From: Desulfobulbus oligotrophicus | Lineage (GTDB): Bacteria; Desulfobacterota; Desulfobulbia; Desulfobulbales; Desulfobulbaceae | DNA length: 64,000 bases | Assembly (NCBI RefSeq): GCF_016446285.1 | Contig: NZ_CP054140.1 | Coordinates: 2,523,501-2,587,500 of the forward strand | Direction: 5' to 3' | Part shown: piece by piece, positions 8,567 to 38,086 of the stretch | Numbering within the stretch: the stretch's first letter is position 1 | Layout of the letters: each line of letters begins with the position of its first letter | Position numbers and translations under genes: made by a program | The notes under the pieces: generated by a model | The model's database searches: none | What the model was told of the DNA's origin: nothing | Seen by the model: the letters and a program-made list of their open reading frames with translations, nothing else

Positions 8567-8595
8567 TAACCTGCTGAGCGTCAAACATCTTCAAC

Positions 8596-8630
8596 AGCGG
8601 GCGGGTTCGGAGTTGCTCCAACCGCCCGCT
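8596..8630 (+). terminator. GC-rich hairpin after catalase
   Basis: AGCGGGCGGGTT pairs with AACCGCCCGCT (one bulged G). It lies 30 bases after the catalase stop. There is no T run after the stem, so it may be a weak terminator or an mRNA-stabilising hairpin. Confidence 0.5.
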
Positions 8631-8718
8631 TACTGTTCCTGTGGACGGAACATCAGAAAAATGCTAAGAAAAAGAAATTCTTTCTACTCTTATCAACCCT
8701 AACCTACAGGTGAACAAA

Positions 8719-14711: not shown

Positions 14712-15074
14712 CCATACGCAGTACGGGCTGTTTGACGAAACACCCGGCCAATGGGTGTTCAACAGATCAGGGTCGTGCAGGCATCAGCATCTCTCTGCTC
14801 TGTACACACGTACGCGGCCTCACCCAGATGAAAAAGCCACGCAACCGCCTGTTTTACCTCTTGTTGCCTGAGAAAGTATGGGGTATGGTCTGGGCAATTT
14901 TTTAAGAAGAAACTTTATTATGCATGATTTTTAACAGGCAGACAGCCTGATCCCAGCAGCACCCTCCACGCTTAAACATGTAATCTCAATCAGTTAACTT
15001 TCTCTTGTTCTGCACAGCATTGCACATCCGAATCGACCTTGTCGAAACGCCCTGTTTGTTGTCAGGAGATTGTT
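14712..15074. other. Intergenic region before the glycan locus
   Basis: 363 bases without a convincing gene. Open frames here do not have ribosome-binding sites. AT content rises sharply after about 14,900, consistent with a promoter region for the glycan locus. AGGAGA at 15064-15069 is the ribosome-binding site of the next gene. Confidence 0.5.
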
Positions 15075-16049: not shown

Positions 16050-16159
16050 CACGGTAATGCTTCACACGTTAATCAACATTTTATTCCAAAATAGCAGTCC
16101 CGTATCAACAACCAGATGTGGCAAAAACATATGCTTATCTTTTTCGAGGTATCACGCTG

Positions 16160-16978: not shown

Positions 16979-18377
16979 AATCGCCATTAAGGTTGAAAAC
17001 CTTAGTAAATGTTACCAGATTTACAATACTCCGCGTGACCGGCTCAAACAATTCATCCTTCCCCGAATCCAACACGTAGTAGGAAAACAACCTCAACAAT
17101 ACTACCGAGAGTTCTGGGCACTGAAGGATATCTCGTTCGAGGTTAAAAAAGGTGAAACAGTCGGCATCATCGGCCGCAACGGCAGTGGTAAGTCCACCTT
17201 GTTACAACTGATCTGCGGCACCTTATATCCCACCAGCGGTCTTGTTCAGACCCATGGACGCATTGCAGCGTTGTTAGAGCTTGGTTCCGGATTTAACCCG
17301 GAGTTCAGTGGCCGTGAGAACGTCTACATGAGCTGCGCCCTGCTCGGTCTAAAGAAGGACGAAATCGACAGACGATTCGATGATATTGCCGCTTTTGCCG
17401 ACATTGGCGATTTCATCGAGCAGCCGGCAAAAAGCTACTCAAGCGGCATGTTCGTGCGCTTAGCCTTTGCGGTTAATGTCATTTCCTCTCCAGACATCAT
17501 GGTTGTGGATGAGGCACTTGCCGTTGGCGACATGAATTTCCAGGCCAAGTGCATGACCGCGCTTACTCGTTTTCAGGAAAATGGAGGAACGGTCCTGTTC
17601 GTCAGCCATGATGTGGGCGCGGTCAAAAGCTTATGCAAACAAGCGGTATATCTGGAACACGGCAAAGTCGTCAGCACCGGACCTGCACCAGAAGTAGCAG
17701 AACGATATGTACGCACCATGCGGGAAGAGATAAGTCAGGAGGTTCGCAAGTTTGTACGGGTATCCAGCGGATTTTCTCAAGATCAAGCCCATGAACCTTC
17801 TTCATCGGTGGTGAATGAGAAGGACCAACCTGGGACAGATAATCTGATCGATACCAGAATGGCCGAGCATTCTTTCAAACGATCAGAAGAGTTTGACCGT
17901 CGTGCCGCAGCAATGCGATACGGCTCGGGTGGTGTCCATATCACTTACGTTGAACTTCTGGACCTTGAGGGTAACCCACTGCAACTCGTCAGCTTCAACC
18001 AGGAAGTCAGAATTGTTATCTATGTCGAGTCAGAATGTGAAAAGGAAATATCTGTTAACTTCAACATACTTGATGATAAAAAAATCAACCTGGTTGCTGG
18101 CAACTTTCTGTTAGCTGAGCGTGACTTCCTGATTGTTAAGTCAGGGAGTCGCTATCGTATCGAATACAGCCTGTGTCTTCCGATACAAGACGGCATTTAT
18201 AGCCTCTGCGCCCTTATCTCAACCCCCATAAAACGAGGTGTTAGCGTAGACTACTTAGATGTTGTAAGTGATGCTGTGATCTTTAATGTTGATCGCTGGG
18301 ATGTAGCGAAAATCTGGTCAAAGGTATTCATCCCAGTCAACCTGAGAATAGGTCACTTCCCTGATAACAGACCTTAA
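16968..18377 (+). CDS. wzt: Polysaccharide export ABC ATPase with C-terminal glycan-recognition domain (Wzt)
   Basis: A 469-residue ATP-binding subunit paired with Wzm. Walker A GRNGSGKST, signature YSSGMFVRLAFAV and Walker B IMVVDEALAVGD lie in the first ~240 residues. After a linker, the last ~150 residues form the immunoglobulin-like Wzt C-terminal domain (YGSGGVHITYVELLD onward), which in known systems recognises the finished non-reducing end of the glycan. This favours an ABC-dependent O-antigen pathway with a terminal modification. The ATG at 16968 has AAGGGG upstream; the longer frame from 16932 lies inside wzm. Confidence 0.94.
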   Translation: MSSEIAIKVENLSKCYQIYNTPRDRLKQFILPRIQHVVGKQPQQYYREFWALKDISFEVKKGETVGIIGRNGSGKSTLLQLICGTLYPTSGLVQTHGRIAALLELGSGFNPEFSGRENVYMSCALLGLKKDEIDRRFDDIAAFADIGDFIEQPAKSYSSGMFVRLAFAVNVISSPDIMVVDEALAVGDMNFQAKCMTALTRFQENGGTVLFVSHDVGAVKSLCKQAVYLEHGKVVSTGPAPEVAERYVRTMREEISQEVRKFVRVSSGFSQDQAHEPSSSVVNEKDQPGTDNLIDTRMAEHSFKRSEEFDRRAAAMRYGSGGVHITYVELLDLEGNPLQLVSFNQEVRIVIYVESECEKEISVNFNILDDKKINLVAGNFLLAERDFLIVKSGSRYRIEYSLCLPIQDGIYSLCALISTPIKRGVSVDYLDVVSDAVIFNVDRWDVAKIWSKVFIPVNLRIGHFPDNRP

Positions 18378-18389
18378 AAATTAACTACT

Positions 18390-18935
18390 ATGTTAATAAC
18401 AAAAAATTTTTTAATGTTAAATAATCCAAAAACGGGATCAACATTTTCCCGTTCCGTAATAAAACAAGTAGTCGAAAAAAGAAGGGTATGGGATCATAGC
18501 GAGTTTTGTATTGATTTGCAGTTGCCGAATATAAAAATCAAAGGACAATCTCGCCCTGCCGATCAGCACGGCACCTATTCTCAAATACCTTTTGAATATA
18601 GCCATTTACCTGTGGTTTCAATAATTCGCAATCCTTATGACAGGGTGGTTTCGACTTACGAGTTCAGACATTGGGCTGAGTGGACTGCTGTACCCAAAGA
18701 AATTATCTCTAAAACTTTTAAAAAATTCCCTGACCTGAGTTTTGAAGAATATGTGCGCTTTACAGATTATGAAATGATCTATGGGCGTTTTAATGGGATC
18801 TCGCCTAAAGCCAACATAGGAAATCAAACTGCACAATTTATCCAGATGTTTTTTAAAAATCCGAATGTTGTATTAGACTCAATTGATGAAAATTACATTA
18901 AATCAAAAAGTGCTGCTAGTGTCCCGTGCGGTTAA
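18390..18935 (+). pseudogene. Sulfotransferase, 5' portion, interrupted by IS630-family element
   Basis: The first 176 codons of a PAPS-dependent sulfotransferase. The 5'-phosphosulfate-binding loop is NNPKTGSTFSRSV at about residues 11-23, and the 3'-phosphate-binding segment is VSIIRNPYDRVVSTYEF. The frame then runs into the IS630 element and ends after four IS-encoded residues (VPCG). Removing the IS and one TA duplication restores one open frame with the 3' piece at 20062-20322, total 264 residues. The product as it stands lacks the C-terminal third and is probably inactive. It is the first of three sulfotransferase genes in the locus and starts 13 bases after wzt. Confidence 0.88.
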
Positions 18936-20054
18936 TAGAGTCTTTTAATATTTCTTGTGTTATAGTGCCGTATGGCACGCAAACACGAGAAATTTACGAT
19001 AACAGACGAACAACGCCAAGACCTTGAGGCGTTGTTGCGCTCACCGAAAACAGCCCAAGATCTGGCATCTCGGGCCAAGATTATCCTCTTAACGGCATCA
19101 GGTAAAACTGCCGAGGATTTGATTGTCGAATTAGGGACAACTTTTCGCACAATCTATCGATGGAGGAAACGATTTAAAGAGTATGGCATCCACGGGCTTG
19201 TCGATCGTCCTCGTAGCGGCCAGCCAAAAAAACTGACCGATGCAACGGTCAAAGAAGTTTTGCGGATGACAGTTGAGTGCATTCCTCATGAGGCAACCCA
19301 TTGGAGTGTTCGCCTTATGGCCAAAGCCGCCAAGGTCACCACGTGGCAGGTGCGACAGATATGGAATGCAGCCGATTTAAAACCGCATCGGCTTAAAAAT
19401 TTCAAAATCAGCAATGATCCGAATTTTGCTGAGAAAGTAATCGATATTGTTGGCCTGTACATGAATCCACCTGAAAATGCGGCTGTGTTTTCCGTTGATG
19501 AGAAAACGCAGATTCAAGCGTTGGATCGTACCCAGCCAATGTTGCCCATGCGGCCCGGCCAGATTGAGCGTCGCACGCATGATTACAAACGAAATGGCAC
19601 CACCAATTTATACGCTGCCTTCGACATTTTAACCGGACAAGTGCTTGGCCGAACAACCAAAAGGCATCGAGCCAAGGAGTTTCTCGACTTCTTGCGGCAG
19701 TTGAATAGGGCCGTTCCAGCCGAGGTTGCCCTCCATGTCATACTGGACAACAGCAGTACCCATAAAACGGCAGATGTGATGCAATGGCTCAAGGCCCACC
19801 CTCGGTTTACGTTCCATTTCACACCAACCAGTGCATCATGGCTGAATGCGGTTGAAAGCTGGTTCGGCCAACTGGAGCGCAGAGCCATCCACCGAGGGGT
19901 GTTTACAAGTGTCAAAGATCTCAGAGATGAAATCCACCGCTTCATCAAGCAGCACAATAACAGATCGGCCAAGCCATTCACATGGACAAAGACTGCAGCG
20001 GTGATACTTGAAAAGGTCTCAAAATTAAAAGACGACACTAACCAAACAGGACAC
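18919..20054 (+). mobile_element. IS630-family insertion sequence inside a sulfotransferase gene
   Basis: A 1136-bp element flanked by TA (18917-18918 and 20055-20056), the target duplication of the IS630/Tc1-mariner group. Terminal inverted repeats match imperfectly over about 18 bp: GTGTCCCGTGCGGTTAAT at the left and, inverted, GTGTCCTGTTTGGTTAGT at the right. It holds one intact transposase. Clean excision would restore the interrupted sulfotransferase frame, so the insertion is recent in evolutionary terms. Confidence 0.93.
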
Positions 20055-20057
20055 TAG
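18972..20057 (+). CDS. IS630-family transposase
   Basis: A 361-residue transposase. Its N-terminal helix-turn-helix/winged-helix region (about residues 10-120) binds the terminal repeats. The DDE catalytic residues are in SVDEKTQIQALDR, LDNSSTHKT and WLNAVESWFGQLE, the usual IS630 arrangement. The frame reads through the right terminal repeat, and its TAG stop is completed by the duplicated target TA plus the next host base (20055-20057). Intact and probably functional. Confidence 0.94.
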   Translation: MARKHEKFTITDEQRQDLEALLRSPKTAQDLASRAKIILLTASGKTAEDLIVELGTTFRTIYRWRKRFKEYGIHGLVDRPRSGQPKKLTDATVKEVLRMTVECIPHEATHWSVRLMAKAAKVTTWQVRQIWNAADLKPHRLKNFKISNDPNFAEKVIDIVGLYMNPPENAAVFSVDEKTQIQALDRTQPMLPMRPGQIERRTHDYKRNGTTNLYAAFDILTGQVLGRTTKRHRAKEFLDFLRQLNRAVPAEVALHVILDNSSTHKTADVMQWLKAHPRFTFHFTPTSASWLNAVESWFGQLERRAIHRGVFTSVKDLRDEIHRFIKQHNNRSAKPFTWTKTAAVILEKVSKLKDDTNQTGH

Positions 20058-20322
20058 CGATATGGGGTCAATAATTTTCTTGCGACAGGAGTTTTTACGA
20101 AATGATTTGAAGTTGTTTCTCTTAGGTGTTGGCTTTTCTGAGGATGAATGCGATCCTATAATCAATGAACCTGATATTAATGTAACCCCGAAAAAGTCAT
20201 CAAACCGAAGTAGTTATTGGACATCAGAAACCGTTGACTATATAACATATAAAGAAAGATTATTATTTGATGTGCTTGCATCAAAAGGAGTCTTTTATGA
20301 AAAGCCATTGGCCAATACCTGA
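20057..20322 (+). pseudogene. Sulfotransferase, 3' portion, separated by IS630 insertion
   Basis: The C-terminal ~88 codons of the sulfotransferase whose 5' part lies at 18390-18918. Reading across the excised IS joins AGC-GAT-ATG in frame and gives SDMGSIIFLRQEF and so on to EKPLANT. No good ribosome-binding site is present, so this piece is unlikely to be translated alone, although the ATG at 20062 opens an 86-codon frame. Its end overlaps the start of the next sulfotransferase gene by 26 bases, as expected for an operon. Confidence 0.85.
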
Positions 20323-21217
20323 CAAGTTATCTTTGGACAAGCATGCACGATTGGCATTCGTGATTGGTACCGGGCGTTGCGGTACTACCATGCTCGCTCA
20401 AATCCTGAATGCGCATTCACGAATTTGTGTGCCTCACGAATTACAGCTTATATTCGGCTACAGTGGCAATGGTCCACGACTTTATGAGTACTTTGCAACA
20501 GCAGAAACGCAGACATGGCAGGCACCTGAGTTTATAAAGGTTGTGGGTAATTTGTGTCCGCATCAGTTTGAAAAATTCTTCGACTATCAGGAGTTTTTCA
20601 ACGCTCGAGAATATCCGGAAAAAGATCTTAGCCTGCTGCTGTCAGATCTGTACTCTGCCACTGCCAAGAGCAAAGGAAAGAATTTTTTTCTGGAACAGAC
20701 ACCATGGTATGGACAGCGGCTTGATCTCATGAACAAGCTTTTTCCTGAAGCCAAATTCATTCATATAATTCGCGATGGGCGGGATGTTGCTCTTTCTTTT
20801 GCACGCACACCCTGGTGGCACGACTCTTCAGCAGATAACCTTGAACGTTGGGGAAATGAGGTGTCAAAAATTGCAGACGATGCAAAAAAAATTCTGGAAA
20901 CACATCAATATTTAGAAATCAAATATGAGGAATTTGTGCTTGCCCCAGAAGTCCATACTTCCCGTATGTTAAACTTTTTAGGTTTTTCCTTCGAAGACGG
21001 GATGCTGTTACCTGAAAAATTAATCGATTATTCGGTCTACCGAAAAATGAAGATGGATAGCCACATGTCCAGCGAGTTCAACAAGTGGAACAAGCAGAAG
21101 AAAAAAGCGGTATTTGCTGATAACGTTTTCGGCTGGAAACGCTCAAACCCTGAAATGTTTAACGATATGTCGGGTCAAACGCGAGCAGCCCTTAGACGTT
21201 TCGGATACGAGGCCTAA
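20297..21217 (+). CDS. Sulfotransferase (Sulfotransfer_3 type)
   Basis: A 306-residue PAPS-dependent sulfotransferase. The 5'-phosphosulfate loop is VIGTGRCGTTMLAQIL near residues 21-36, and the 3'-phosphate motif is FIHIIRDGRDVALSFARTPWW. FLEQTPWYGQRLDL between them resembles the substrate-pocket segment of this family. The ATG at 20297 has AAGGAG eight bases upstream and is preferred to the upstream ATG at 20267. The stop overlaps the aminotransferase start (TAATG). Acceptor probably a sugar hydroxyl of the exported glycan, inferred from the surrounding genes. Confidence 0.92.
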   Translation: MKSHWPIPDKLSLDKHARLAFVIGTGRCGTTMLAQILNAHSRICVPHELQLIFGYSGNGPRLYEYFATAETQTWQAPEFIKVVGNLCPHQFEKFFDYQEFFNAREYPEKDLSLLLSDLYSATAKSKGKNFFLEQTPWYGQRLDLMNKLFPEAKFIHIIRDGRDVALSFARTPWWHDSSADNLERWGNEVSKIADDAKKILETHQYLEIKYEEFVLAPEVHTSRMLNFLGFSFEDGMLLPEKLIDYSVYRKMKMDSHMSSEFNKWNKQKKKAVFADNVFGWKRSNPEMFNDMSGQTRAALRRFGYEA

Positions 21218-22305
21218 TGATTCCCGTCACTAAAACTACCCTTCCCGACTTTGATGACTTTGCAAGTCACTTGAAAGATGTTTGGCATACCGCTGTTCTT
21301 ACCAACAACGGCCCTCTTGTTAAACATCTGTCAGCAGCACTGGCTGAAACTCTTGGCGTCGAGCACATTCAGCTCGTAAGCAATGGCACTCTGGCTATTC
21401 AGCTGGCCATCAAGGCCCTGGATCTCCGAGGCGAAATCATTACCACGCCATACAGTTACGTGGCCACAACCAATGCCATACTTTGGGAAGGCTGCACACC
21501 GGTGTTCGTGGATGTTGCTCCCCAATCATTTTGCATTGATGCAAATCTGATTGAAGCAGCAATTACAAAAAAAACAACCGCCATCCTGGCTACTCATGTT
21601 TACGGTTATCCTTGCGATGTTGTACGCATTCAAGAAATAGCAAATCGTCATAACCTTAAAGTAATCTATGACGCTGCCCATGCTTTTGGTGTGCGTTTGA
21701 ATGAAGAATCATTGTTGAGACACGGCGACTGTAGTACTTTGAGCTTCCATGCAACTAAGCTTTTCCATACAGCTGAGGGCGGAGCCGTCGTTTGCCGTGA
21801 TGAAAAAGTGGCTAAACGGGTTTTTCTTATGAGCAAGTTCGGACACGTGGGCGAGGATGAGTACCTCGACCTTGGCATCAATGCCAAGATGTCCGAACTG
21901 CACGCCGCTATGGGTTTAGCCGTTTTACCAAAGGTTGATGAGATCATTGCCGCACGTTGTGAACGCTCTGGCTGGTATGACAGATACCTGGCAGATTTGA
22001 AGCTGCAGCGCCCTGGGGTTGTTAATGGCCTGGAGTATAATTACGCGTATTATCCTGTTGTTTTCAACACCCATGAATCTATGATGGCTGCTCGAAAACT
22101 CTTGCAGGCCCACAACATATTCCCAAGAAGATATTTCCACCCCTCTCTGAACACACTACCTTTTTTACATAAAAATTTGCAAAAACCATGTCCAGTTTCA
22201 GAATCACTGTCTCAACGTGTGCTGGCTCTCCCCCTTTACGTAACACTTACCCGGCAGGAAGTTAACATGATCTCAAGTTGCATTAAAAATGCAATTACTG
22301 TTTAA
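21217..22305 (+). CDS. DegT/DnrJ/EryC1/StrS-family sugar aminotransferase
   Basis: A 362-residue PLP-dependent aminotransferase acting on nucleotide keto-sugars, giving an amino sugar for the glycan. The PLP Lys is in SFHATKLFHTAEGG near residue 189; DAAHAFG carries the cofactor Asp, and VSNGTLAIQLAIKALD is the phosphate-binding region. It resembles the VioA/FdtB group that makes dTDP-linked 4- or 3-amino deoxy sugars. It overlaps the upstream sulfotransferase by one base. The dehydratase making its substrate is not in the window. Confidence 0.92.
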   Translation: MIPVTKTTLPDFDDFASHLKDVWHTAVLTNNGPLVKHLSAALAETLGVEHIQLVSNGTLAIQLAIKALDLRGEIITTPYSYVATTNAILWEGCTPVFVDVAPQSFCIDANLIEAAITKKTTAILATHVYGYPCDVVRIQEIANRHNLKVIYDAAHAFGVRLNEESLLRHGDCSTLSFHATKLFHTAEGGAVVCRDEKVAKRVFLMSKFGHVGEDEYLDLGINAKMSELHAAMGLAVLPKVDEIIAARCERSGWYDRYLADLKLQRPGVVNGLEYNYAYYPVVFNTHESMMAARKLLQAHNIFPRRYFHPSLNTLPFLHKNLQKPCPVSESLSQRVLALPLYVTLTRQEVNMISSCIKNAITV

Positions 22306-22315
22306 GGAGGTTCGC

Positions 22316-23005
22316 TTGAAGCTGGCAATCATGCAGCCTTACCTGTTTCCTTACCTGGGTTATTTTCAACTTATAAAAGCTGTGGATATGTTCGTTATTT
22401 ATGATGACGTACAGTATATAAAAAGAGGATGGATTAATCGTAACCATATCTTTTCACAAAACGGTAAACAACGTATTACGCTGCAAGTGCTAGGTGGCAG
22501 TTTAAACTCTCTGATTAATCAGGTTAAGGTGGGCAGCAACGGAGAAAAATTATTAAAAACACTTCAACATAACTACAGTAAATCACCATATTTTAAAGAT
22601 ATATTTCCCCTGCTGGAACGAATTTTACTGCAAAAAGAAAAAAATTTAGTTCATTTTTTGGACTATGCCTTAAAACAGACCTGTGAATATTTGAATGTAC
22701 ATCCGAAATGGTATTTTTCTTCATCCTTAACAAAAGACAATACATTACAAGGACAGGACAAAATTCTTTCTATCTGTAAGACTTTAGGAGTTAATGAATA
22801 TATCAATCTACCTGGTGGACGAGGTCTGTATAATCATGAAAAATTCCACCAAAAAGACCTGCGACTATCATTTATTCAACCACGAGCTGTTGAATATCAA
22901 CAATTCAATACATCTTTCATACCAAATCTTTCTATTATTGATGTAATGATGTTCAATAGTCAGAAACAGTGCGGTCGATTTTTAAAGGAATACGATGTCA
23001 ACTGA
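22316..23005 (+). CDS. WbqC-family protein
   Basis: A 229-residue member of the WbqC family, common in O-antigen and capsule loci; members are often next to DegT aminotransferases and are suspected to modify amino sugars, but the reaction is not settled. The N-terminus LAIMQPYLFPYLGYFQLI is the family hallmark. I place the start at the TTG (22316): AAGGAGG ends five bases before it, and the resulting N-terminus matches the family, whereas the ATG at 22289 lies inside the aminotransferase. It overlaps the next sulfotransferase by 11 bases. Confidence 0.9.
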   Translation: MKLAIMQPYLFPYLGYFQLIKAVDMFVIYDDVQYIKRGWINRNHIFSQNGKQRITLQVLGGSLNSLINQVKVGSNGEKLLKTLQHNYSKSPYFKDIFPLLERILLQKEKNLVHFLDYALKQTCEYLNVHPKWYFSSSLTKDNTLQGQDKILSICKTLGVNEYINLPGGRGLYNHEKFHQKDLRLSFIQPRAVEYQQFNTSFIPNLSIIDVMMFNSQKQCGRFLKEYDVN

Positions 23006-23960
23006 AACACGATCAAAAAAATTTCAAAAAAACGAAGATCTAGAGTTTCTTCTTCGGGAACTGGGTAAAGATTTACAACCAACTGAAAACCAACTTGTTC
23101 ATCATTATCTGGATAAATCTCTGCCATACCCTCTTATCCTGATAATGGGTCCATTACGCAGTGGCACCACCCTGTTTCTCCAGTGGCTTGCCAATACCGG
23201 TCTCATTGCTTACCCCACCAACCTGCTATCGCGATTTTATCAGTCACCCATTATTGGTGCAAAAATACAGCTTCTGTTGACTGATCCACAATACAACTTT
23301 CGCGACGAGTTGGGAGAATTTGCCCATCAGACTGCGTACAGATCCGAGAACGGTAAGACTAAAGGTGTACTCGCTCCGAATGAGTTCTGGTACTTTTGGC
23401 GGCGGTTTCTGGCCGAACCGGACCGCGATGTGTGGACGGATGAAGAGTTGCTGCAAACTGTGGACACACAAAATATGCTGGCTGAGTTAACCGGGTTGAT
23501 GACTGTATTTCAAAAACCCTTTGCAGCCAAAGGGATGCTGTTTAATTACAATATTCCTTTTATGAACTCTATTTTAAACAAGGTGTTGTTCGTTCATATT
23601 ACAAGAGATGAGCATGCTAATGCAGTCTCGGTACTTGAAGCGCGTAAACGCCAATTTGATGATAAGAGAAAATGGTATTCTTTTAATATTCCGGAAAAAA
23701 CAGAACTGATGCAACTTGCACCATTTGAACAGGCCTTAGGCCAGGTTCGCGCTATTAATAAGGCAGTTAAGTCAGGGTTAACAAAGGTTGCTGAATCCAG
23801 AAAAATGACTGTTCAATACGAAGAGTTTTGCGATTGTCCCAAAAAATATTTTGAGATACTCATGTCTAAAATAGAGATGCCAGAAACTCCCTATCAGGGG
23901 AAAACCTACTTTAAAGCAACCCGGCTGAAAACAGATAACTCAACAATCAGCATATCTTAA
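22995..23960 (+). CDS. Sulfotransferase, third in locus
   Basis: A 321-residue sulfotransferase. The 5'-phosphosulfate loop is IMGPLRSGTTLFLQWLA near residues 49-65, and the 3'-phosphate motif is FVHITRDEHANAVSVLEAR. It differs clearly from the other two sulfotransferases here, so it probably modifies another position or sugar. AAAGGA precedes the ATG, and the start overlaps WbqC, giving a coupled aminotransferase-WbqC-sulfotransferase set. The 215 bases after it are AT-rich with no gene. Confidence 0.9.
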   Translation: MSTETRSKKFQKNEDLEFLLRELGKDLQPTENQLVHHYLDKSLPYPLILIMGPLRSGTTLFLQWLANTGLIAYPTNLLSRFYQSPIIGAKIQLLLTDPQYNFRDELGEFAHQTAYRSENGKTKGVLAPNEFWYFWRRFLAEPDRDVWTDEELLQTVDTQNMLAELTGLMTVFQKPFAAKGMLFNYNIPFMNSILNKVLFVHITRDEHANAVSVLEARKRQFDDKRKWYSFNIPEKTELMQLAPFEQALGQVRAINKAVKSGLTKVAESRKMTVQYEEFCDCPKKYFEILMSKIEMPETPYQGKTYFKATRLKTDNSTISIS

Positions 23961-24175
23961 TCGGATGAGTAACAATATTCTGAAAACATGGGCTGCGTGC
24001 ACGGTATAAAAATTCCACCACACCTTCACAGGTATCATATCAGTAATTACGGCTAATGCTACACATGTATTGTTTGTCTGTAAAAACATCATCTTAACAG
24101 TACACAGTTTGCAACTTTTACCCGTATTGCAATCTCATTCTTCACATCCAGACAATATAAATACCAGCAGACAAT

Positions 24176-25354
24176 ATGACTTCGACACCAAGAATATCCG
24201 TTATTTTAACATCATTCAATCATGCTTTATTTTTGCGTGAAGCCATTGACAGTGTTTTAAACCAAACGTTTCAAGACTTTGAACTCATCATCTGGGACGA
24301 TGCCTCTAAAGACAACTCCTGGGATATTATTCAAAGCTACAATGATCCACGTATCAAATCTTTTCGTAACGATGAACAAAGACGAGGTGTTTACGGGCTT
24401 AACAAAGCAATTTCCGAAGTGGCCTTAGGTGAATTCATTGCCATTCACCATTCAGATGATGTTTGGGAAGAAAAAAAACTTGAGAAACAATTTGATATTT
24501 TTACACAATGTCCAGATATAGGAGCTGTTTTTACCTGGGTACAAATTATTGATGAAAACGGGTACAAACTAGACCTTGACTGGTTTAATCGACCATACAA
24601 TCGATGGCAGCTGCTTAGAGAACTTTTTTCAGGTGAAAATCATCTGAATCATCCAAGTGCCCTTGTACGGAAGAGTTGTTATGACAGTGTGGGGCTTTAC
24701 AAATTTGGCCTTGCACAAACTGCTGATGCTGAGATGTGGTCTCGTTTACTCCTGCAGCACAATGCTGCGGTTGTAGAGGAAAGACTGGTCAAACACAGAT
24801 TTTTTTCGGATGGTTCGAATACGAGCAGCTTATCAAACAACAATAAAATTCGTGCTCAAAATGAATGGTATATACTGCGATGCAACTTTTTGAATTGTAA
24901 GAAATTCGAGGACCTGCTCCAAATTTTTCCAGAAATCTCTGAGGTATGTAGCGAGAAGGACTTTTCAATTGTCAGGGCGTTAGCATACGTCTCATTGACC
25001 CCTAATATGCCACGAAGTGCTTGGGGATTTGGCATCAACATCTTATATCATGAGATAACAAACACTGTGCACAGTTCGGCCCTATGCAATAAATATGATT
25101 ATAGAAATCTGTTAATAGAAAGTGGACTATTTGATGTATACAGCATCTTACCAGACACTAAAACCAACAACCTAAAGAAACACATTGATGAACAAAACGA
25201 ACAGATTGATTTACAGGAAAAATACATTGATACTCTGGTACAATCTCGGTCATGGAGATGGACAAAACCATTGCGCCTCATTGAACAACACACACAACAA
25301 ATTATTCAGCAGTTACGTGATGTATTAAATGCTAAACGTGATCGAAATATCTAA
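24176..25354 (+). CDS. Family 2 glycosyltransferase with C-terminal coiled coil
   Basis: A 392-residue glycosyltransferase. The GT-A domain occupies residues 1-230: SVILTSFNHALFLREAIDSVL, IWDDASKDNSW and the DxD-like HHSDDVWEEKK. The C-terminal part has a short coiled coil (DEQNEQIDLQEKYIDTLV) then SRSWRWTKPLR, a tail motif often found in large glycan-polymerising or rhamnan-type glycosyltransferases. No strong ribosome-binding site. It lies upstream of a decayed sequence that resembles accessory repeats of such enzymes, so the original gene set was probably larger. Confidence 0.9.
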   Translation: MTSTPRISVILTSFNHALFLREAIDSVLNQTFQDFELIIWDDASKDNSWDIIQSYNDPRIKSFRNDEQRRGVYGLNKAISEVALGEFIAIHHSDDVWEEKKLEKQFDIFTQCPDIGAVFTWVQIIDENGYKLDLDWFNRPYNRWQLLRELFSGENHLNHPSALVRKSCYDSVGLYKFGLAQTADAEMWSRLLLQHNAAVVEERLVKHRFFSDGSNTSSLSNNNKIRAQNEWYILRCNFLNCKKFEDLLQIFPEISEVCSEKDFSIVRALAYVSLTPNMPRSAWGFGINILYHEITNTVHSSALCNKYDYRNLLIESGLFDVYSILPDTKTNNLKKHIDEQNEQIDLQEKYIDTLVQSRSWRWTKPLRLIEQHTQQIIQQLRDVLNAKRDRNI

Positions 25355-25386
25355 CAACAATATCCATTCTCCTTATGTTCAAATGA

Positions 25387-25684
25387 TGCATTTATACAGA
25401 AATTATAGCTGCTTGCGAAGCAATTATTATAAACATTCCTTCTAATCAGATCTGTGCAGTACGTGAAAGAGCAATAGAAATTATCCACATTTCCGGACTG
25501 TATGAAAGCAACTATTATTGCGTTGTGTATTCGAACATTAAAAAAAATATATGATTTGACATGGAATTACTATACGGCTGGCGGAAAGGAAAAAACTTCT
25601 GATAATTTTGATGCTATTAATAAGTACGTTAATCACCGAACATTGGAATCATGTTTGGCAAACGATTCATACTCAATAGATTGA
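25387..25684 (+). pseudogene. Frameshifted remnant of a glycan-biosynthesis accessory repeat
   Basis: Two overlapping short frames, 25387-25554 and 25502-25684, look like one broken protein. Frame 1 has SGLYESNYYCVVYSNIKK, which resembles the SGLFDxxYYLxxYPDV module of exopolysaccharide proteins. Frame 2 continues DLTWNYYTAGGKEK then NFDAINKY, matching the following DPLxHYLxxGxKEG and FDxxYY parts of the same module. Removing one A from the run of eight at 25540-25547 joins them in the right register. There is no start codon with a ribosome-binding site. Very AT-rich. The rest of 25355-25809 shows nothing recognisable. Confidence 0.5.
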
Positions 25685-25809
25685 ATTACCGTTTAATCGT
25701 AAGACCCGAGGGCTGGAAAATGTACGTTGATTAATGACCGCCTTAATATCAGCTATCTCAATACAAATTCAGACAAAATTTTAAATTTTACCCACGGATA
25801 TCGAAATTC

Positions 25810-27174
25810 ATGAAAATTATTCTGACCGCCCATCAATTTCTTCCAGAATACAACTTCGGCACTGAGGTGCTGACCTATAGCGTGGCAAAGGACTTAGTAG
25901 AACGTGGTCACGAGGTTTCTGTCCTGACAGGAGCACCAGCAAAGACATCATTAAACGATGACGAGCGTTTTGATGAGTACCAGATAGATGGCATTAACGT
26001 ATACCGTTTTACACACGAATTCATCCCCATGGGTGATCAAAATGTGATTATGGAAATAGAGTACACCAACAACCTGGTGGCTCGTTACTTTCGGAAACTA
26101 TTAAATAATGTTAAACCCGATCTAGTGCATATCTTTCATATGTCTCGGTTAAGCGCAGCTATCATCGATGTCACTGTTAATATGAACATCCCCACGTACT
26201 TCACACCAACTGATTTTTGGAGTGTTTGCCCTATGAGTCTGCTTATGTTGGATGATGGAACCTCTTGCAAAGGACCAGAGAAACTGGCAACTAATTGTGT
26301 TCGACATGTTGCCATGCGATCTCGTTGGGGGTGGGTTGAAAAATTTGCAAAAGCAGCACCAGATAGCCTTGCAAACCTAGCAGTTGCCATTGTCCGAAAA
26401 GGTTGGTTACCTCGTCAGCTCCCGTTTGTAAATGAAATCTCCGCACTTTCAAAACGAAGCAATTACCTGATTTCACGGCTGAACACCCTCAATGGTATTG
26501 TTTCACCAACCACTGTGATGACTGAGGTACTGGTTAGAAACGGGGTACGACCAGAGTTAATCAAGCAGTATATGTATGGCATCAACATGGACAACTATGA
26601 AGCTCGTCTCCGTAGTCGAACTGCTGGAACAGCTTATACATTTGGTTTTATAGGGGGGTTATCAAATCATAAGGGATGTCATGTACTTATCCAGGCAGTT
26701 CGATTACTCAACCATAAAGATGTACTACTGAAAATCTATGGAAATCCAAAAGATTTTCCAGACTATTACAACAAGTTGCAGGAATTGGCTGAAGACTTTC
26801 CTTCTATCAAGTTTTGCGGCACTTTTCCAAACACTCAAATTGCTGAAATTCTCGACGGTATTGACACTCTGGTAGTCCCCTCTATCTGGTTTGAAAACGC
26901 CCCTCTGGTAATCCACTCAGCACTGGCTGCCGGATGTCCTGTAGTGTCTTCTGATTTTCCTGGTATGTCGGAAGTCATCCACAATGAAAAAAACGGATTA
27001 TTATTTGAACCAGGTAATGCTAAAGACTTGGCCGCAAAGCTCAGACGTTTACTTGATGAACACAATCTTCTTGAAAAACTCAGCAGTAACTGCCGTAAAC
27101 CAAAATCAATTGCAGAATATGTAGACGAAATCTTGACTCTGTATGAGTCTCGCCTTGCATATACAAGTAATTAA
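25810..27174 (+). CDS. Family 4 glycosyltransferase
   Basis: A 454-residue GT-B fold glycosyltransferase. The N-terminal domain begins ILTAHQFLPEYNFGTEVLTYSVAKDL with the glycine-containing acceptor loop. The C-terminal donor domain has FGFIGGLSNHKGCHVLIQA, and the EX7E-type motif starts at ENAPLVIHSALAAGCPVVS. An insertion with several Cys residues (about 140-165) is unusual but could be structural. The protein is cytoplasmic, with a nucleotide-sugar donor unknown. It sits after the decayed region and before the epimerase. Confidence 0.92.
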   Translation: MKIILTAHQFLPEYNFGTEVLTYSVAKDLVERGHEVSVLTGAPAKTSLNDDERFDEYQIDGINVYRFTHEFIPMGDQNVIMEIEYTNNLVARYFRKLLNNVKPDLVHIFHMSRLSAAIIDVTVNMNIPTYFTPTDFWSVCPMSLLMLDDGTSCKGPEKLATNCVRHVAMRSRWGWVEKFAKAAPDSLANLAVAIVRKGWLPRQLPFVNEISALSKRSNYLISRLNTLNGIVSPTTVMTEVLVRNGVRPELIKQYMYGINMDNYEARLRSRTAGTAYTFGFIGGLSNHKGCHVLIQAVRLLNHKDVLLKIYGNPKDFPDYYNKLQELAEDFPSIKFCGTFPNTQIAEILDGIDTLVVPSIWFENAPLVIHSALAAGCPVVSSDFPGMSEVIHNEKNGLLFEPGNAKDLAAKLRRLLDEHNLLEKLSSNCRKPKSIAEYVDEILTLYESRLAYTSN

Positions 27175-27263
27175 GGACATTAACTATTATCATATCAGTC
27201 GATTGTAGGGTATCGAATACTTTTCGACTCTTAATTTCTAACAAATAATTTTCGATATCTTAT

Positions 27264-28247
27264 ATGAAATCATCAGAGTCTCACAAAAATATATCTACAA
27301 ATACCTCCAGCACCTGTCTGGTGATTGGCGGTCGTGGCTTTATCGGACTACATCTGATCGATGCTTTACTGCAACAAGACTATCATGTCCGCTGCTTTGA
27401 TCGTCCTCATGCAGTGCCTCTGGAAAATAAATTACGTAACAATCCAAATTTTGAGATGTTCGAGGGCGATTTCACCAATGAAAAAGATATTGTTGACGCT
27501 TTCAAAGGTTGCGATTTCTGCTTTCATCTCGTCTCTACAACACTTCCGCAATCTTCAAATGCCGACCCGGTATACGATGTTGAAAGCAATGTTGTTGCTA
27601 CAATAAAATTGTTCAATCATGCTGTACGTACAGGTCTTAAAAAAATTATTTTTCCCTCTTCAGGAGGCACAGTTTACGGTGTTCCACTCAACATTCCAAT
27701 CCATGAGGACCATCCCACAAATCCCCTCTGCTCATATGGTATCTCTAAACTGACCATTGAAAAATACCTCGAACTGTACAGACATCTTCATGGGCTGGAG
27801 TACAGTGTGTTACGTATTTCCAACCCGTACGGTGAACGGCAACGAGTCCATTCAAGTCAGGGAGTTATCGCTGTTTTTCTTGGTAAAATATTACGAGGAG
27901 AGGTTGTTGAGATATGGGGAGACGGATCGGTAACCAGAGACTACATCTATATAGCTGATGTTATAGAGGCAATGCTGGCAACGCTTGCATACAGCGGTGA
28001 TCAACGAATTTTTAATATCGGCTCAGGCCAGGGACACAGTCTTAATGAGATACTGGATACAATCGAAACAGTCACTGGCTCGCCGGTACATCGCCGTTAT
28101 TTACCCGGCCGCCCGTTCGATGTGCCCTCAAATGTTTTAGATATAGAACGAGCGCGTCAGTATTTAGATTGGTCACCAGGTATGAGTTTCGAAGAAGGAC
28201 TGTCACGATTTGTTAAGTGGCTGCAACAACAACCGGATGACCAATAG
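27264..28247 (+). CDS. NAD-dependent sugar epimerase/dehydratase (extended SDR)
   Basis: A 327-residue extended short-chain dehydrogenase, GalE-like. NAD binding is by GGRGFIG at residues 23-29, the catalytic YxxxK is YGISK near residue 160, and the active-site Ser/Thr region is FPSSGGTVYG. FDVPSNVLDIERARQYLDW near the C-terminus is typical of nucleotide-sugar epimerases. Likely role: interconverting a UDP- or dTDP-sugar for the glycan; the exact substrate is not readable. It converges on the CysN-CysC-like gene with a 35-base gap. Confidence 0.9.
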   Translation: MKSSESHKNISTNTSSTCLVIGGRGFIGLHLIDALLQQDYHVRCFDRPHAVPLENKLRNNPNFEMFEGDFTNEKDIVDAFKGCDFCFHLVSTTLPQSSNADPVYDVESNVVATIKLFNHAVRTGLKKIIFPSSGGTVYGVPLNIPIHEDHPTNPLCSYGISKLTIEKYLELYRHLHGLEYSVLRISNPYGERQRVHSSQGVIAVFLGKILRGEVVEIWGDGSVTRDYIYIADVIEAMLATLAYSGDQRIFNIGSGQGHSLNEILDTIETVTGSPVHRRYLPGRPFDVPSNVLDIERARQYLDWSPGMSFEEGLSRFVKWLQQQPDDQ

Positions 28248-28282: not shown

Positions 28283-30142
28283 TCAATCGGAAATATTCGC
28301 ATCCAACTTCAAAAGTGCTAAGATCTCCTGGATTGAGCTGTTTTGCTTAAACACAACTGTTGGATTGTCCGGCGGTTCATAAGGACTATCAATACCGGTC
28401 ATATTAGGCAGTCGACCACTGCGTGCTTTTTGATATAATCCCTTGGGATCACGCTTTTCACACACCTCCAAGGGGGTATCAACAAACACCTCAACAAAGT
28501 TCTCTGCACCGATTAATTCCCGGGCCATCCGTCGCTCAGCTCGAAACGGACTGATAAACGCTGTTATCACGACGAGACCGGCATCCATCATCAGCCTGGC
28601 TACTTCAGCAACGCGACGAATATTTTCAACACGGGCAGCCTCTGTGAACCCAAGATCTCTATTCAATCCCTGACGGATATTATCGCCATCAAGAACATAG
28701 GTGCGTCTTCCTGAAGCATAAAGTTGTTTTTCCAGCCTGTTGGCAAGGGTGGACTTGCCAGCACCAGATAGACCGGTAAGCCAGATTACCTTACCACGGT
28801 GACGGTTGAGTCGTTCGCGATCTTGCCGAGTAATGCTCAATGCCTGTTGATGCACCGTGCGGGATCTGCGTAAATAGTGCCTGATAAACCCGACAGCCAC
28901 TGTTGTTTGTTCAAAACGGTCCATCAAAATAAAACTACCGAAAATCAACGTGTTTTGGACTGTATCAAAGTATACAGGATGACTGAGGGCAAGGTTACAT
29001 ACCGCAATATCATGTAATTCTAACTGTCGACTCGGTAGCTGTGCATTGGTGTTTATATCGATGAGATGCTTAATATTTGTAATCCAGGCGTTGGTCTTCT
29101 GATTAGCAAGCTTCATCAAATATCTGCGGCCGGACAGTCCAATGTCTTTGTGCATCCAAAAAAGTGTGGCTTGAAACTGATCAGACATTTCAAACGATGT
29201 ATTGATTGGCATCAGTACATCTCCCATGGTAACGGCAACCGTTCGATCAAGTATTAAAGTAACTGTTTCACCTGCATTTACACTGTCAACATTCCCATCA
29301 GGAGTATCAATTTGTACTACTCTGCCGGTATCACCAGATGGTAGTACCTGTAACTGCTCACCAACACAAAGTTCTCCTGTTGCTACAACACCACGAACTT
29401 TTGAAAGTCCATGTTCGTTCCTGTCAGAGTTTTGTACCAGGAACATAACTTTATAGTCAGATGACGATTCAACCTGCAGATTGTCCAGGCAGGACAGAAG
29501 AGATTGCCCTGTATACCATGGCATCTTATCTGAAAGCGAAATAATATTATCCCCGGTAAGCACAGACAGAGCAATGGTTGTAACACTTTTAAACCCTAAG
29601 GGTTCTACTGCATGTTTGTAAGTAGTACAGATATCCTCGAAATTCTGTTGATTACGAAAAACTGCATCTGCGTTATTCATCGCCAGGATGACATGCCGTA
29701 TACCAACCAGCCATGCTCTGCACATGTACGCCATCACCTGATCCGTGTCTTGAGCACTGGCATCGACAAGGACCACAGCCACATCAGCGATAAAAGCATC
29801 ACAAACCATGTTGTCAAGATACTGGCCGGGCTTGGACACAGTTGCAACGATATACTTACGTTGCGTTGAGTTAAAATGACGATAGGAAAGATTACTTGTT
29901 GTATCGAAGAAAACAATATTTTTAGTTGCTCGTTCTAACGCTGCCTGCTGATTGTCAATAACCTGTTGTGGACTTTGAAACAGATGGTTGAGCAGTGCCT
30001 CCTGTTCTTTCTCCATTCCTCCAAAAATGATTAAACGAAATATTCTCGGATCTATTTGCTGTAACTCACCATTGGTTGTTGTGTCAGTTTCACAAAATGG
30101 CTTTTCAATCGGCGATGGATATTTTTTCTTCCCTGGTGTCAT
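28283..30142 (-). CDS. CysN-CysC (NodQ-like) fusion with degenerate GTPase and intact APS kinase
   Basis: A 619-residue fusion. Residues ~35-430 align in layout with the sulfate adenylyltransferase large subunit CysN (GTPase plus two EF-Tu-like beta barrels), but the GTP motifs are gone: the P-loop position reads GGMEKEQEA (41-49), the DTPG position reads TVSKPG (101-106) and NKMD reads NNAD (156-159). Residues ~449-619 are a complete APS kinase: P-loop GLSGAGKST, DGDNIRQGLN, FISPFRAERR, FVDTPLEVCEKRDPKG. The C-terminal domain should make PAPS from APS. No cysD is adjacent. PAPS is the donor for the three sulfotransferases in this locus. In a sulfate reducer a separate Sat enzyme supplies APS, so the GTPase domain may be dispensable; it could be structural or regulatory. 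Confidence 0.9.
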   Translation of the reverse strand: MTPGKKKYPSPIEKPFCETDTTTNGELQQIDPRIFRLIIFGGMEKEQEALLNHLFQSPQQVIDNQQAALERATKNIVFFDTTSNLSYRHFNSTQRKYIVATVSKPGQYLDNMVCDAFIADVAVVLVDASAQDTDQVMAYMCRAWLVGIRHVILAMNNADAVFRNQQNFEDICTTYKHAVEPLGFKSVTTIALSVLTGDNIISLSDKMPWYTGQSLLSCLDNLQVESSSDYKVMFLVQNSDRNEHGLSKVRGVVATGELCVGEQLQVLPSGDTGRVVQIDTPDGNVDSVNAGETVTLILDRTVAVTMGDVLMPINTSFEMSDQFQATLFWMHKDIGLSGRRYLMKLANQKTNAWITNIKHLIDINTNAQLPSRQLELHDIAVCNLALSHPVYFDTVQNTLIFGSFILMDRFEQTTVAVGFIRHYLRRSRTVHQQALSITRQDRERLNRHRGKVIWLTGLSGAGKSTLANRLEKQLYASGRRTYVLDGDNIRQGLNRDLGFTEAARVENIRRVAEVARLMMDAGLVVITAFISPFRAERRMARELIGAENFVEVFVDTPLEVCEKRDPKGLYQKARSGRLPNMTGIDSPYEPPDNPTVVFKQNSSIQEILALLKLDANISD

Positions 30143-35623: not shown

Positions 35624-38086
35624 TCAGACTGCCCGGTTTGCCCAGACACGATGCTCAAAAAAGGCAATCAGTATATACAAAAAAAGGGCACACCCAATGA
35701 CCGTTGAAAAGCCACCGTGCAGAGCCACCAGGATCGCCACCATGGTACTGATGACCGAAAAGAAACCATTCACTCCCCAGGCCAGAGGAATCCATTCGGG
35801 ATACCATTTGCCCAGACGAAGCAATCCAAGGGGAAACGGCATCCCCATCCAGAACGCCAGGCCGCCGATCAGTCCGATACTGACAACTGCCCGCACGGTA
35901 AGAGGCCAGGCAGCTCCCAGTTGGAAGATATATGACAGCAGCCACAGGTACAGACAGGCCACCACCACAATAACCGTGCAGACAAGCATAACCGGTCGTC
36001 TAGAACCCCATGACCATTCACGCAGCCAAGTCATCTGTTGCAAACGCTTAACAGCGCCGCTTCCCAGTCCTGCAAAAAAGAGAAACGAAGGCACAATCAC
36101 TGCCATTGCCAGTATTGGGTCACGTAAAAAGACGATCCATTGCTGCATGAATGTAATTTCCACAAAAAAGAACGCCAGACCCAAGGCTGCAAAGTAGACA
36201 ATCCAGGCAGCTCTCTCTTTTCGGCCCAGGCTGATTTGCCTGTGTTTGCGCATAAACGGGCGTAAGGGTAAAAAAATTGCCGGTACACTGATGACAAGAG
36301 CCACGGCAAACGACATCCACAACAGCAGGTATTCCCATTCCAACAGAGCCGCGCTCCCGCTTGTTCGCTGTGTCCACAGAGAAGGTAAGGAAGACCAGCG
36401 AAAGAAATGGCTGAACCAGGGACGATCATCAACAGCAGGCGTCACATGAAAGGTTGCTGACAGTGGATGAGCAACGCCCTGTCGCAGGGCAGATATCGCC
36501 TCATACAGATAGGGTTGATCAAGAACACTGATTTGATTGACTTCGCTGCTTTTCAGACCGGGCAGCCAGTCAATATCAAAGGCCCGCTCCTTGCAAAAAA
36601 CCCTGACTGTATCCTGCTGGTAATGTGATAACGGTGCACGGCTGACCATAATAGTTGCGGTGTTCCAGGTTCGGATAACGATCAGATGGGCAAAAGGATC
36701 GCTGTTTGCATCCAGTCGCTGCATGGCAGCCATTAACGTTGTCACTGTCTTCAGAGCACTGCGCGGCGGTAGTTCCAGGGGCAGAGTCAGGCTTAACATT
36801 CCGTTATTCGTCAGGTGAGACAGAGCCAGCTGCAACCCTTCAACCGTAAAAAGAGGCTGAGCCCGCAGGGCGTGGCCACTTCCAGCACCAGCCGGTACGG
36901 CCGTGCCAAAAAGGGAGAGCTGGATCAGATCATACTGCTGTTGACTGGCCACTAAAAAGCCGCGGATATCACCTCTTTCCAGATGCACCTGTTTTTGCTG
37001 GTAGATATCACCGCTGAAGGTGGTGAAATCGGTGGTGATCAGATCAACCAGACCGCGATTTTGCTCCACAGCATCAATACGGACAGCCTGCTCCAGCAGA
37101 GCATGCCAGATATCCGTGCCTCCACCTGCCCCGGCCACAAGCACGTCCGGCTGCTTATCTATCAGGGCATAGGCCAGGGCCTGGGGAGTCCAACGAAGAA
37201 ATTCCATGGCCTGCCCCCCTTCACTGCCACGCTGAATTACCCCAACAGGATGTCCATCATGAAAAAGAGCGATCTGTTCCGGCGGCAGTACCGGAGCCAG
37301 CAGGCTTAACCCCGGCGCATACCGAAAGGGGATGTTGTTACTTACAAGGGCGGTATATTCGCCTACCGGCGTATGCTTTTCTGCGGCAACCCGTACTCCG
37401 GGCACCAGTAGTGCCTGTTTTAGCCCCTTATACTCGGACATGACCGGAACCAGAATGTGATTAGGCCAAACCAGGCAGACCACCGCACATACTGCAAGAA
37501 CCAGACGCCACAATCCTGTGTTGTTACGCCCGACAAGAACCATTGGTGCCAACAGGCCAACCAGCGCCAGGAGCTTGATGCAGTACTGTGGCGGCCACAG
37601 AAAGAGGAGGAAAAAAACCAGTAAAGTACCGCCTGCAGCTCCACAGAGATCGGCCCGATACATCCTGGCAACCTCATCCTGAAAACTCCGTAGGGTAAGA
37701 CCGATACAAAGACCGGCAAAGAAAAAAGGCACCGTGGTGACAGTGAAGACCGCTGCGAATCGAATCATCTGCCTCCCCTGCCAGATGATCTCCGGCGGAT
37801 TGAAGCCCAGCCGACCGATCAGTGACGCAGCAAGCAGCAGGGTAACGACAAAAAGAAGACTGCTGACGGCAAATGAACGGGAGAAGACAGGAACAAGGCG
37901 ATGCTGCAGCCGGCTGAGTACACTGCCCGAAAGACCAAACCCCAACAGGGCCATGCTGATAATCAGGTGGGCAAAATGATCCCAGTACATCAGGGAGAAA
38001 AACCGTAGGAGCACCAGTTCATAACCAAGGGCGGCACTGGAAACCAGGGCGACTGCCAGTGCGGCTTTCCCTGTTGTCGGCTTCAT
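35624..38086 (-). CDS. Large polytopic membrane protein with spermidine-synthase-like domain
   Basis: An 820-residue protein. N-terminal (about 1-215) and C-terminal (about 585-815) blocks of membrane helices flank a soluble Rossmann-like domain (about 220-560) related to spermidine synthase. A SAM-type glycine motif is visible (VLVAGAGGGTDIWHALL, then IDAVEQN). At the position of the catalytic Asp of polyamine synthases the sequence reads YDLIQLSLFG, with no acid, so aminopropyl transfer is unlikely. Many bacteria have such membrane-embedded paralogues of unknown function. It starts ten bases after the PCMT-like gene; same operon. Confidence 0.85.
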   Translation of the reverse strand: MKPTTGKAALAVALVSSAALGYELVLLRFFSLMYWDHFAHLIISMALLGFGLSGSVLSRLQHRLVPVFSRSFAVSSLLFVVTLLLAASLIGRLGFNPPEIIWQGRQMIRFAAVFTVTTVPFFFAGLCIGLTLRSFQDEVARMYRADLCGAAGGTLLVFFLLFLWPPQYCIKLLALVGLLAPMVLVGRNNTGLWRLVLAVCAVVCLVWPNHILVPVMSEYKGLKQALLVPGVRVAAEKHTPVGEYTALVSNNIPFRYAPGLSLLAPVLPPEQIALFHDGHPVGVIQRGSEGGQAMEFLRWTPQALAYALIDKQPDVLVAGAGGGTDIWHALLEQAVRIDAVEQNRGLVDLITTDFTTFSGDIYQQKQVHLERGDIRGFLVASQQQYDLIQLSLFGTAVPAGAGSGHALRAQPLFTVEGLQLALSHLTNNGMLSLTLPLELPPRSALKTVTTLMAAMQRLDANSDPFAHLIVIRTWNTATIMVSRAPLSHYQQDTVRVFCKERAFDIDWLPGLKSSEVNQISVLDQPYLYEAISALRQGVAHPLSATFHVTPAVDDRPWFSHFFRWSSLPSLWTQRTSGSAALLEWEYLLLWMSFAVALVISVPAIFLPLRPFMRKHRQISLGRKERAAWIVYFAALGLAFFFVEITFMQQWIVFLRDPILAMAVIVPSFLFFAGLGSGAVKRLQQMTWLREWSWGSRRPVMLVCTVIVVVACLYLWLLSYIFQLGAAWPLTVRAVVSIGLIGGLAFWMGMPFPLGLLRLGKWYPEWIPLAWGVNGFFSVISTMVAILVALHGGFSTVIGCALFLYILIAFFEHRVWANRAV

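Follow-up and report, generated by a model that had tools for sequence, protein, structure and literature searches.

A window of 64,000 nucleotides from Desulfobulbus oligotrophicus (assembly GCF_016446285.1, contig NZ_CP054140.1, positions 2,523,501 to 2,587,500; positions given below are those of the window) carries, at 28283-30142 on the minus strand, a cysNC-type gene whose product joins a CysN-like GTPase to a kinase for adenosine 5'-phosphosulfate (APS). The nucleotide-binding motifs of the GTPase have largely disappeared while the fused kinase is fully conserved, and the protein is probably a dead GTPase carried on an APS kinase that is fed by the ATP sulfurylase Sat. The CysN part most likely persists as a folded module that supports the kinase without being catalytic itself, a reading moderately ahead of one in which it is a passing relic; the relic reading shares the core just stated and disputes only its last step, and the likelihoods attached to the core and to the relic overlap. 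The gene had been singled out from the letters and open reading frames alone, in what is called here the original prediction.

The open reading frame of 619 codons starts with ATG, contains zero internal stops, and encodes domains in the order G, II, III and kinase. The CysNC family model NF004035 matches residues 82-605 at 576.2 bits, short of its cut-off of 715, and the CysN model TIGR02034 scores 271.9, under its cut-off of 336.1; the kinase part, in contrast, reaches 250.8 bits with TIGR00455, well above the cut-off of 138.7. Pfam GTP_EFTU matches from profile position 65 onward only, that is, past the P-loop, and GTP-eEF1A_C matches as well, giving the G-II-III layout of CysN. Among solved structures the top sequence match is 1zun_B, the CysN of Pseudomonas syringae, and the Sat-type family PF01747 does not appear among the 25 of 32 Pfam families listed for the protein. 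Six candidate start codons (residues 372-455) could serve as an internal start before the kinase, with no clear ribosome-binding site by eye, and a scan for promoters and terminators returned about as many sites as shuffled sequence. In the features below, a residue counts as invariant when it is at least 95% conserved across 24 relatives, which gives 33 motif positions.

28283-30142, minus strand: probable CysN-like pseudo-GTPase fused to APS kinase, 619 amino acids (open reading frame, translation, Pfam and NCBIfam matches)
29501-30046, minus strand: degenerate G domain (residues 33-214), with a predicted fold but without its catalytic motifs
29996-30022, minus strand: former P-loop (G1), GGMEKEQEA replacing GSVDDGKST; 1 of 9 invariant residues kept
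29873-29935, minus strand: remnant of switch I (G2); 8 of 11 invariant residues deleted
29810-29842, minus strand: former G3 and switch II, TVSKPGQYLDN replacing DTPGHEQYTRN; 3 of 9 invariant residues kept
29666-29677, minus strand: former G4, NNAD replacing NKMD, with Asn and Asp retained; 2 of 3 invariant residues kept
29558-29566, minus strand: G5, SVL replacing SAL; the sole invariant residue of the three (read as Ala) not kept
29183-29500, minus strand: barrel domain II (residues 215-320), with accelerated change; 7 of 14 invariant positions retained
28868-29182, minus strand: barrel domain III, residues 321-425; nearly normal constraint; 8 of 9 invariant residues kept
28343-28801, minus strand: APS kinase domain (residues 448-600), with P-loop GLSGAGKST; none of the 40 invariant residues lost

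Alignment with the relatives bears out the CysN-CysC fusion and the altered P-loop, DTPG and NKMD positions that the original prediction had reported, together with the complete kinase and the CysN-like barrel layout, which is also that of the predicted fold. Its statement that every motif was lost is right for G1, most of switch I and G3 but goes too far for G4, which keeps Asn and Asp, and for G5, which keeps Ser; the switch region that it had called CysN-like has in fact lost most of switch I to two in-frame deletions that, measured against its closest relatives, removed 10 and 9 residues. With Lys and Ser/Thr gone from the P-loop, Asp and Gly gone from G3, and switch I mostly deleted, no recognisable phosphate or magnesium site is left in the sequence, and GTP binding has presumably been lost. 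The window protein retains 8 of the 33 invariant motif residues, and under leave-one-out scoring the count for any one of the 24 relatives is 32 or 33 of 33 (33 of 34 for L013 and L018, in the numbering of loci used here). Loss extends beyond the motifs: the rest of the G domain retains 21 of 47 invariant positions, and its aligned length is 182 residues versus 201 among the closest relatives. Motifs that were shifted or misaligned yet intact, an outcome for which the original prediction had suggested looking, were ruled out, the surroundings of G1 and G3 aligning without gaps to the closest relatives and the motifs themselves being truly altered. The protein thus shows what is expected of a nucleotide-free pseudoGTPase, namely non-conservative substitutions in the pocket motifs with the fold kept, the fold being judged here by prediction and by the pattern of substitution.

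Rates of change differ by domain. On a fixed topology, the terminal branch of the window protein was set against the mean for 24 other terminal branches (24 of 70 relatives): it measures 3.28 against 0.237 for the G domain (maximum 0.590), or 14 times the mean; 1.43 against 0.394 for domain II (maximum 1.051), or 3.6 times; and 0.525 against 0.352 for domain III, or 1.5 times. The kinase branch, at 0.178 against 0.242 (0.7 times), is shorter than the mean. A second tree, whose topology was built on domain III and kinase together and to which two plasmid relatives were added (20 others plus L038), gave 2.81 against 0.267 for the G domain (10.5 times), 1.47 against 0.497 for domain II (3.0 times), 0.504 against 0.356 for domain III (1.4 times) and 0.189 against 0.247 for the kinase (0.8 times). 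Relaxation, as read from these branches, is graded from G domain through domain II and domain III to kinase.

Among the relatives and samples covered here, the degenerate form was found in this genome only. Relatives were sought in genome contigs and the best 80 of 579 were kept, so that some may be missed; 70 of these 80 loci cover the G domain well enough for alignment. The G1 pattern GxxxxGK[ST] and the G3 pattern DxPGH are intact in all 70, and NKxD (G4) in 69, the exception being SKMD in L063. Among the loci outside the 70, two with split frames (L045, L062) contain all three motifs, two cut by a contig end (L048, L058) leave G4 alone visible, one (L038) is without a G domain, and five encode an APS kinase only. 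The P-loop is also present in both plasmid relatives and in 29 of 29 loci from the phylum (a sample of 395 genomes at E 1e-40, with 29 of 37 other matches examined), one of which, L162, does not fit the G3 pattern. A scan of 73 genomes of the family found a CysN part in no other genome, and a scan of 257 genomes of the order found no other among the matches listed, which are the better ones; these genomes have instead separate APS kinases or matches within longer frames of about 570-600 residues. A clade sharing the degenerate GTPase, the check proposed with the original prediction, did not emerge from the best 80 of 579 relatives or from the family, order and phylum samples.

In the trees the window protein groups with the CysNC proteins of L002, L003 and L036, its nearest relatives among the best 80 of 579, and with the plasmid copies L188 and L189; a tree of the kinase alone again places it with L002, L003 and L036. 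These three and L038 are metagenome-assembled genomes (MAGs). The contig labels of L013 (Bifidobacterium breve) and L036 (Chitinophaga pinensis) sit oddly with Proteobacteria-like proteins, and these bins may be mislabelled. Shortened forms occur elsewhere among the relatives. The gammaproteobacterial L038 encodes, at 7941-9107, CysN domains II-III and an APS kinase without a G domain; its locus is without cysD, its genome holds a separate cysD-cysN pair, and it branches outside the L002/L003/L036 group with modest support. Two Rhizobium open reading frames (L072:7941-8684 and L074:7935-8645) have just the tail of domain III ahead of a complete APS kinase and are apparently fossils of a NodQ-type gene. 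Given the missing G domain of L038 and the domain III tails of L072 and L074, CysNC proteins seem to have lost their GTPase more than once, starting at the N-terminal end.

The genomic setting points to the loss of the GTPase's partner. The assembly is a single contig of 3.10 Mb, 99.99% complete, and PF01507, the family that matches cysD beside four close relatives, has zero matches in it, whereas 14 of 14 control genomes were matched. The CysD of L036, used as a query in a search without a positive control of its own, found no match in the genome even at E 10, and a search of the window for a cysD remnant returned chance-level matches only (best E 0.55). The missing neighbour that the original prediction had pointed out therefore holds for the window and, as far as detected, for the whole genome. 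The genome carries one Sat, its sole PF01747 match, which lies away from the window gene at a map distance of about 0.64 Mb; AprA and DsrA were also found, outside the Sat neighbourhood, and the organism presumably reduces sulfate, as these three genes suggest. No second APS kinase was found in the genome, the window protein being the only match to its own query, and redundancy through such an enzyme was rejected.

The three nearest relatives show the opposite arrangement, with CysD in 3 of 3 genomes and Sat detected in 0 of 3. Across seven relative genomes searched, PF01507 was matched in 7 of 7 and Sat in 0 of 7; at least L002, L003, L036 and L038 among these are MAGs, with completeness not given. 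The contrast agrees with the earlier proposal that selection on the GTPase would be relaxed where Sat makes APS. A cysD match occurs in 70 of 80 loci (L002-L081), and lies directly upstream of cysNC in L002, L003, L004 and L036. The ten loci without one comprise five with a kinase only (L072, L074, L075, L077, L081), three cut by a contig end (L048, L058, L076), L038, and L071. Some of the CysD proteins beside cysNC have an N-terminal extension of about 200 residues (L036:6406-7911, L003:6403-7887, L002:4555-6027, L004:6439-7950; also L020); the extension of L036 matches no Pfam family, even with E relaxed to 10.

Despite these losses, the G domain apparently still folds, to judge from its substitutions and from a predicted model. 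Hydrophobic core positions remain hydrophobic at 58 of 66 sites (0.879). When the codons of a sister gene were mutated neutrally to the same identity, 0.669 were kept (standard deviation 0.050, maximum 0.803) and 0 of 500 simulations reached the value of the window protein; starting from two other sisters gave 0.659 and 0.650, again with 0 of 500. The core of domain II is hydrophobic at 25 of 26 positions versus 0.639 under neutrality (0 of 500 simulations). An AlphaFold model of the protein has a mean predicted local distance difference test (pLDDT) score of 82.4, with low confidence at residues 1-29, 58-83 and 427-433, and superposes on 1zun_B in VIA-align with Z 42.2 and a root-mean-square deviation of 2.4 over 370 aligned residues. 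The intact sister L036, modelled with the same sequence set, scores 87.3, with residues 67-75 of its switch region under 50; since an intact protein is also of low confidence there, that feature does not distinguish a dead domain. The original prediction had argued for a structural use from a domain kept at full length. The frame is indeed open throughout, but the G domain has shortened, and length is a weak argument in any case because the kinase lies downstream in-frame and selection on it keeps the frame open; it is the core preserved beyond neutral expectation, with a predicted fold that is CysN-like, that speaks for such a use.

These observations can be assembled into the following scheme. 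Sat would make APS from ATP and sulfate, and the C-terminal kinase domain, whose activity is suggested by its conservation, would convert APS to 3'-phosphoadenosine 5'-phosphosulfate (PAPS). Sulfotransferases of the neighbouring locus may spend this PAPS in sulfating an exported surface polysaccharide. Formerly, the N-terminal CysN part would have driven CysD through GTP hydrolysis; with CysD no longer detectable in the genome, GTP binding would have been freed from selection, and the nucleotide motifs were lost. What remains of the CysN module would help the kinase to stay in solution, to be properly spaced or to dimerise correctly; the conserved part of the module is domain III and, to a smaller degree, domain II.

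There is some precedent for modules of this kind. Gay et al. are said to have described, in 2009, a two-domain APS kinase of Thiobacillus denitrificans without ATP-sulfurylase activity. That enzyme resembles the window protein in being bacterial and in retaining a non-functional sulfurylase domain, but its module is of the Sat type and not of the CysN type, according to a comparison in the passages seen of PMC13213808. The same passages describe an APS kinase of Entamoeba histolytica that likewise bears an N-terminal module without ATP-sulfurylase function while a separate sulfurylase supplies APS (PMC13213808); there the dead module is of the Sat type and its effect on the kinase was measured, whereas the module described here is of the CysN (EF-1A-like GTPase) type and known from sequence. 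Deletion of the dead Entamoeba domain led to aggregation and a kcat about 100-fold lower, as these passages report (PMC13213808). Taken with the Entamoeba and Thiobacillus enzymes, the window protein suggests that dead sulfurylase modules have been retained on APS kinases more than once and from two unrelated sulfurylase families.

Other comparisons mark out what is particular to the gene. It shares its domain order with CysNC/NodQ (NF004035) but differs in the loss of G1, switch I and G3, in the failure to find CysD in its genome and in its sub-cut-off score. L038 is also an APS kinase bearing CysN remains without GTPase function; its G domain, however, is absent and not dead, it has the separate cysD-cysN pair, and it is placed elsewhere in the tree. 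Class I septins (Spn7), as portrayed in passages of PMC10731463, are pseudoGTPases that similarly combine a GTPase fold with many non-conservative changes in the pocket motifs, but belong to another GTPase family; the window protein descends from bacterial translational GTPases and is joined to an enzyme. No report of a degenerate CysN or CysNC GTPase was found among the listed titles and starts of abstracts of the open-access literature, searched for such a protein and also for pseudoGTPases, sulfation clusters, dead sulfurylase or kinase domains, and APS kinases with sulfotransferases in sulfate reducers; none was seen either in the passages covered of two surveys of translational GTPases (PMC1780047, PMC4342817) or of PMC4373884 (Mycobacterium tuberculosis APS kinase), PMC10731463 (septins) and PMC3734648 (APS as modulator). 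The gene has the appearance of a natural experiment in which the partner was lost, the GTPase lost its need for GTP, and the fused kinase stayed under full selection; as such it may offer a graded picture of what each portion of CysN is for: the G domain and some of domain II may serve CysD, and domain III the kinase.

Several points weigh against a dead GTPase kept as a support. Loss is heavier inside the motifs than in the rest of the G domain, but not significantly so (8/33 versus 21/47; odds ratio 0.40, Fisher p = 0.097), and Asn and Asp of G4 and Ser of G5 are still present. In L071 an intact CysNC occurs without cysD in a 16-kb locus, from a genome with two PF01507 matches, so that a missing adjacent cysD need not mean decay. 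The neutral simulation begins at present-day relatives and uses a simple mutation model. The alignment given to AlphaFold consists of intact CysNC proteins, which biases the result toward a CysN fold; for this reason the model alone is weak evidence, and the substitution pattern is the stronger. In the Entamoeba enzyme, kcat/KM was largely unchanged according to its authors, and destabilisation may explain part of the effect of truncation (passages of PMC13213808). Finally, the example of L038 shows a G domain to be dispensable, and that of the window protein may be a passing relic.

This last alternative comes close behind the support reading and is a real, if tentative, possibility. It holds that the kinase works and that the CysN part has no role, persisting in-frame ahead of the kinase because it has not yet been deleted, with its core kept since misfolding would harm the kinase. 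The 14-fold G-domain branch, the two deletions in switch I, the loss of the G domain in L038, the mere domain III tails of L072 and L074, and the restriction of the degenerate form to a single genome across the family, order and phylum scans are all as it would have them. The hydrophobic cores (58/66 against 0.67 under neutrality, with 0/500 simulations as high, and 25/26 in domain II) and the nearly normal constraint on domain III fit it less well, but both would also be compatible with a constraint on folding only, and the relic reading stands close because constraints on frame and folding alone could account for the observations.

An unlikely development would be a new regulatory use. Through allostery or docking, the dead CysN fold might then tune the kinase or keep it close to Sat or the sulfotransferases; by analogy with Entamoeba the fold might be a nucleotide-free regulatory subunit that adjusts PAPS synthesis under a high flux of APS from Sat. 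A fold retained after its catalytic residues were lost is consistent with this, as is the 21-60 fold fall in kcat produced by point mutations in the dead sulfurylase-like domain of the Entamoeba APS kinase (passages of PMC13213808). Against it, a single sequence cannot reveal a conserved new surface, and the gene is not paired with Sat, the two lying about 0.64 Mb apart.

That the G domain still binds a nucleotide, with altered specificity or a partner in trans, is scarcely credible: the retained G4 Asn and Asp and G5 Ser would permit it, but the P-loop no longer has its Lys and Ser/Thr, G3 has lost its Asp and Gly, switch I is mostly missing, and no CysD-family protein was found in the genome. 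Equally improbable is decay of the whole gene to a pseudogene, for which one might cite a short sulfotransferase-like frame of the same locus that adjoins a transposase; a pseudogene or gene error was rejected on a kinase branch shorter than the mean (0.178 against 0.242), 40/40 invariant kinase residues, and a frame without stop or frameshift.

The gene runs convergently toward the end of a surface-polysaccharide locus, which includes the following.

15039-28247, plus strand: surface-polysaccharide locus with glycosyltransferases, an ABC-2/Wzt exporter, a DegT aminotransferase, WbqC and a sugar epimerase
18390-18935, plus strand: short sulfotransferase-like open reading frame (Sulfotransfer_1 at 21.9 bits, slightly short of the cut-off of 22)
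20267-21217, plus strand: sulfotransferase (Sulfotransfer_3), probable user of PAPS
22995-23960, plus strand: sulfotransferase-like protein (Sulfotransfer_3, 36.0 bits, cut-off 27)

GC content is 37-45% at 18-30 kb, compared with 51-57% over the first 14 kb and 50-54% at 30-48 kb. Near relatives of the gene sit in sulfation or nodulation clusters (L003, L189). Around cysD-cysNC in L003, a betaproteobacterial MAG, the DegT, WbqC, ABC-2 and Wzt proteins are 42%, 38%, 56% and 44% identical to those of the window. With the threshold at E 1e-3, the sulfotransferase-like proteins of the window still find no match in L003, and the sulfotransferase of L003 is a different one, so the gene set common to both excludes a shared sulfotransferase. 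The cysNC gene presumably came by horizontal transfer from outside the order. Telling against a wider transfer, L127, a locus from another genome of the organism's own order, has beside an APS kinase ABC-2 and Wzt proteins 57% and 46% identical to those of the window, as close as those of L003 within a comparison that covers only the loci fetched in this analysis; the proposed transfer from outside the order is accordingly limited to cysNC and does not extend to the whole cassette.

A few further observations may be recorded. At 18390-20057 a DDE transposase open reading frame directly follows the short sulfotransferase-like one, possibly an insertion that cut a gene. Three long open reading frames in the window, at 12882-14711 (609 residues), 35624-38086 (820 residues) and 44269-45990 (573 residues), are without a Pfam match at E 0.001. 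Viral contigs of IMG/VR (L163-L173) also encode APS kinases, whose identity to the kinase domain of the window protein reaches 62% and whose matches are confined to the kinase end of that protein, from residue 375 onward.

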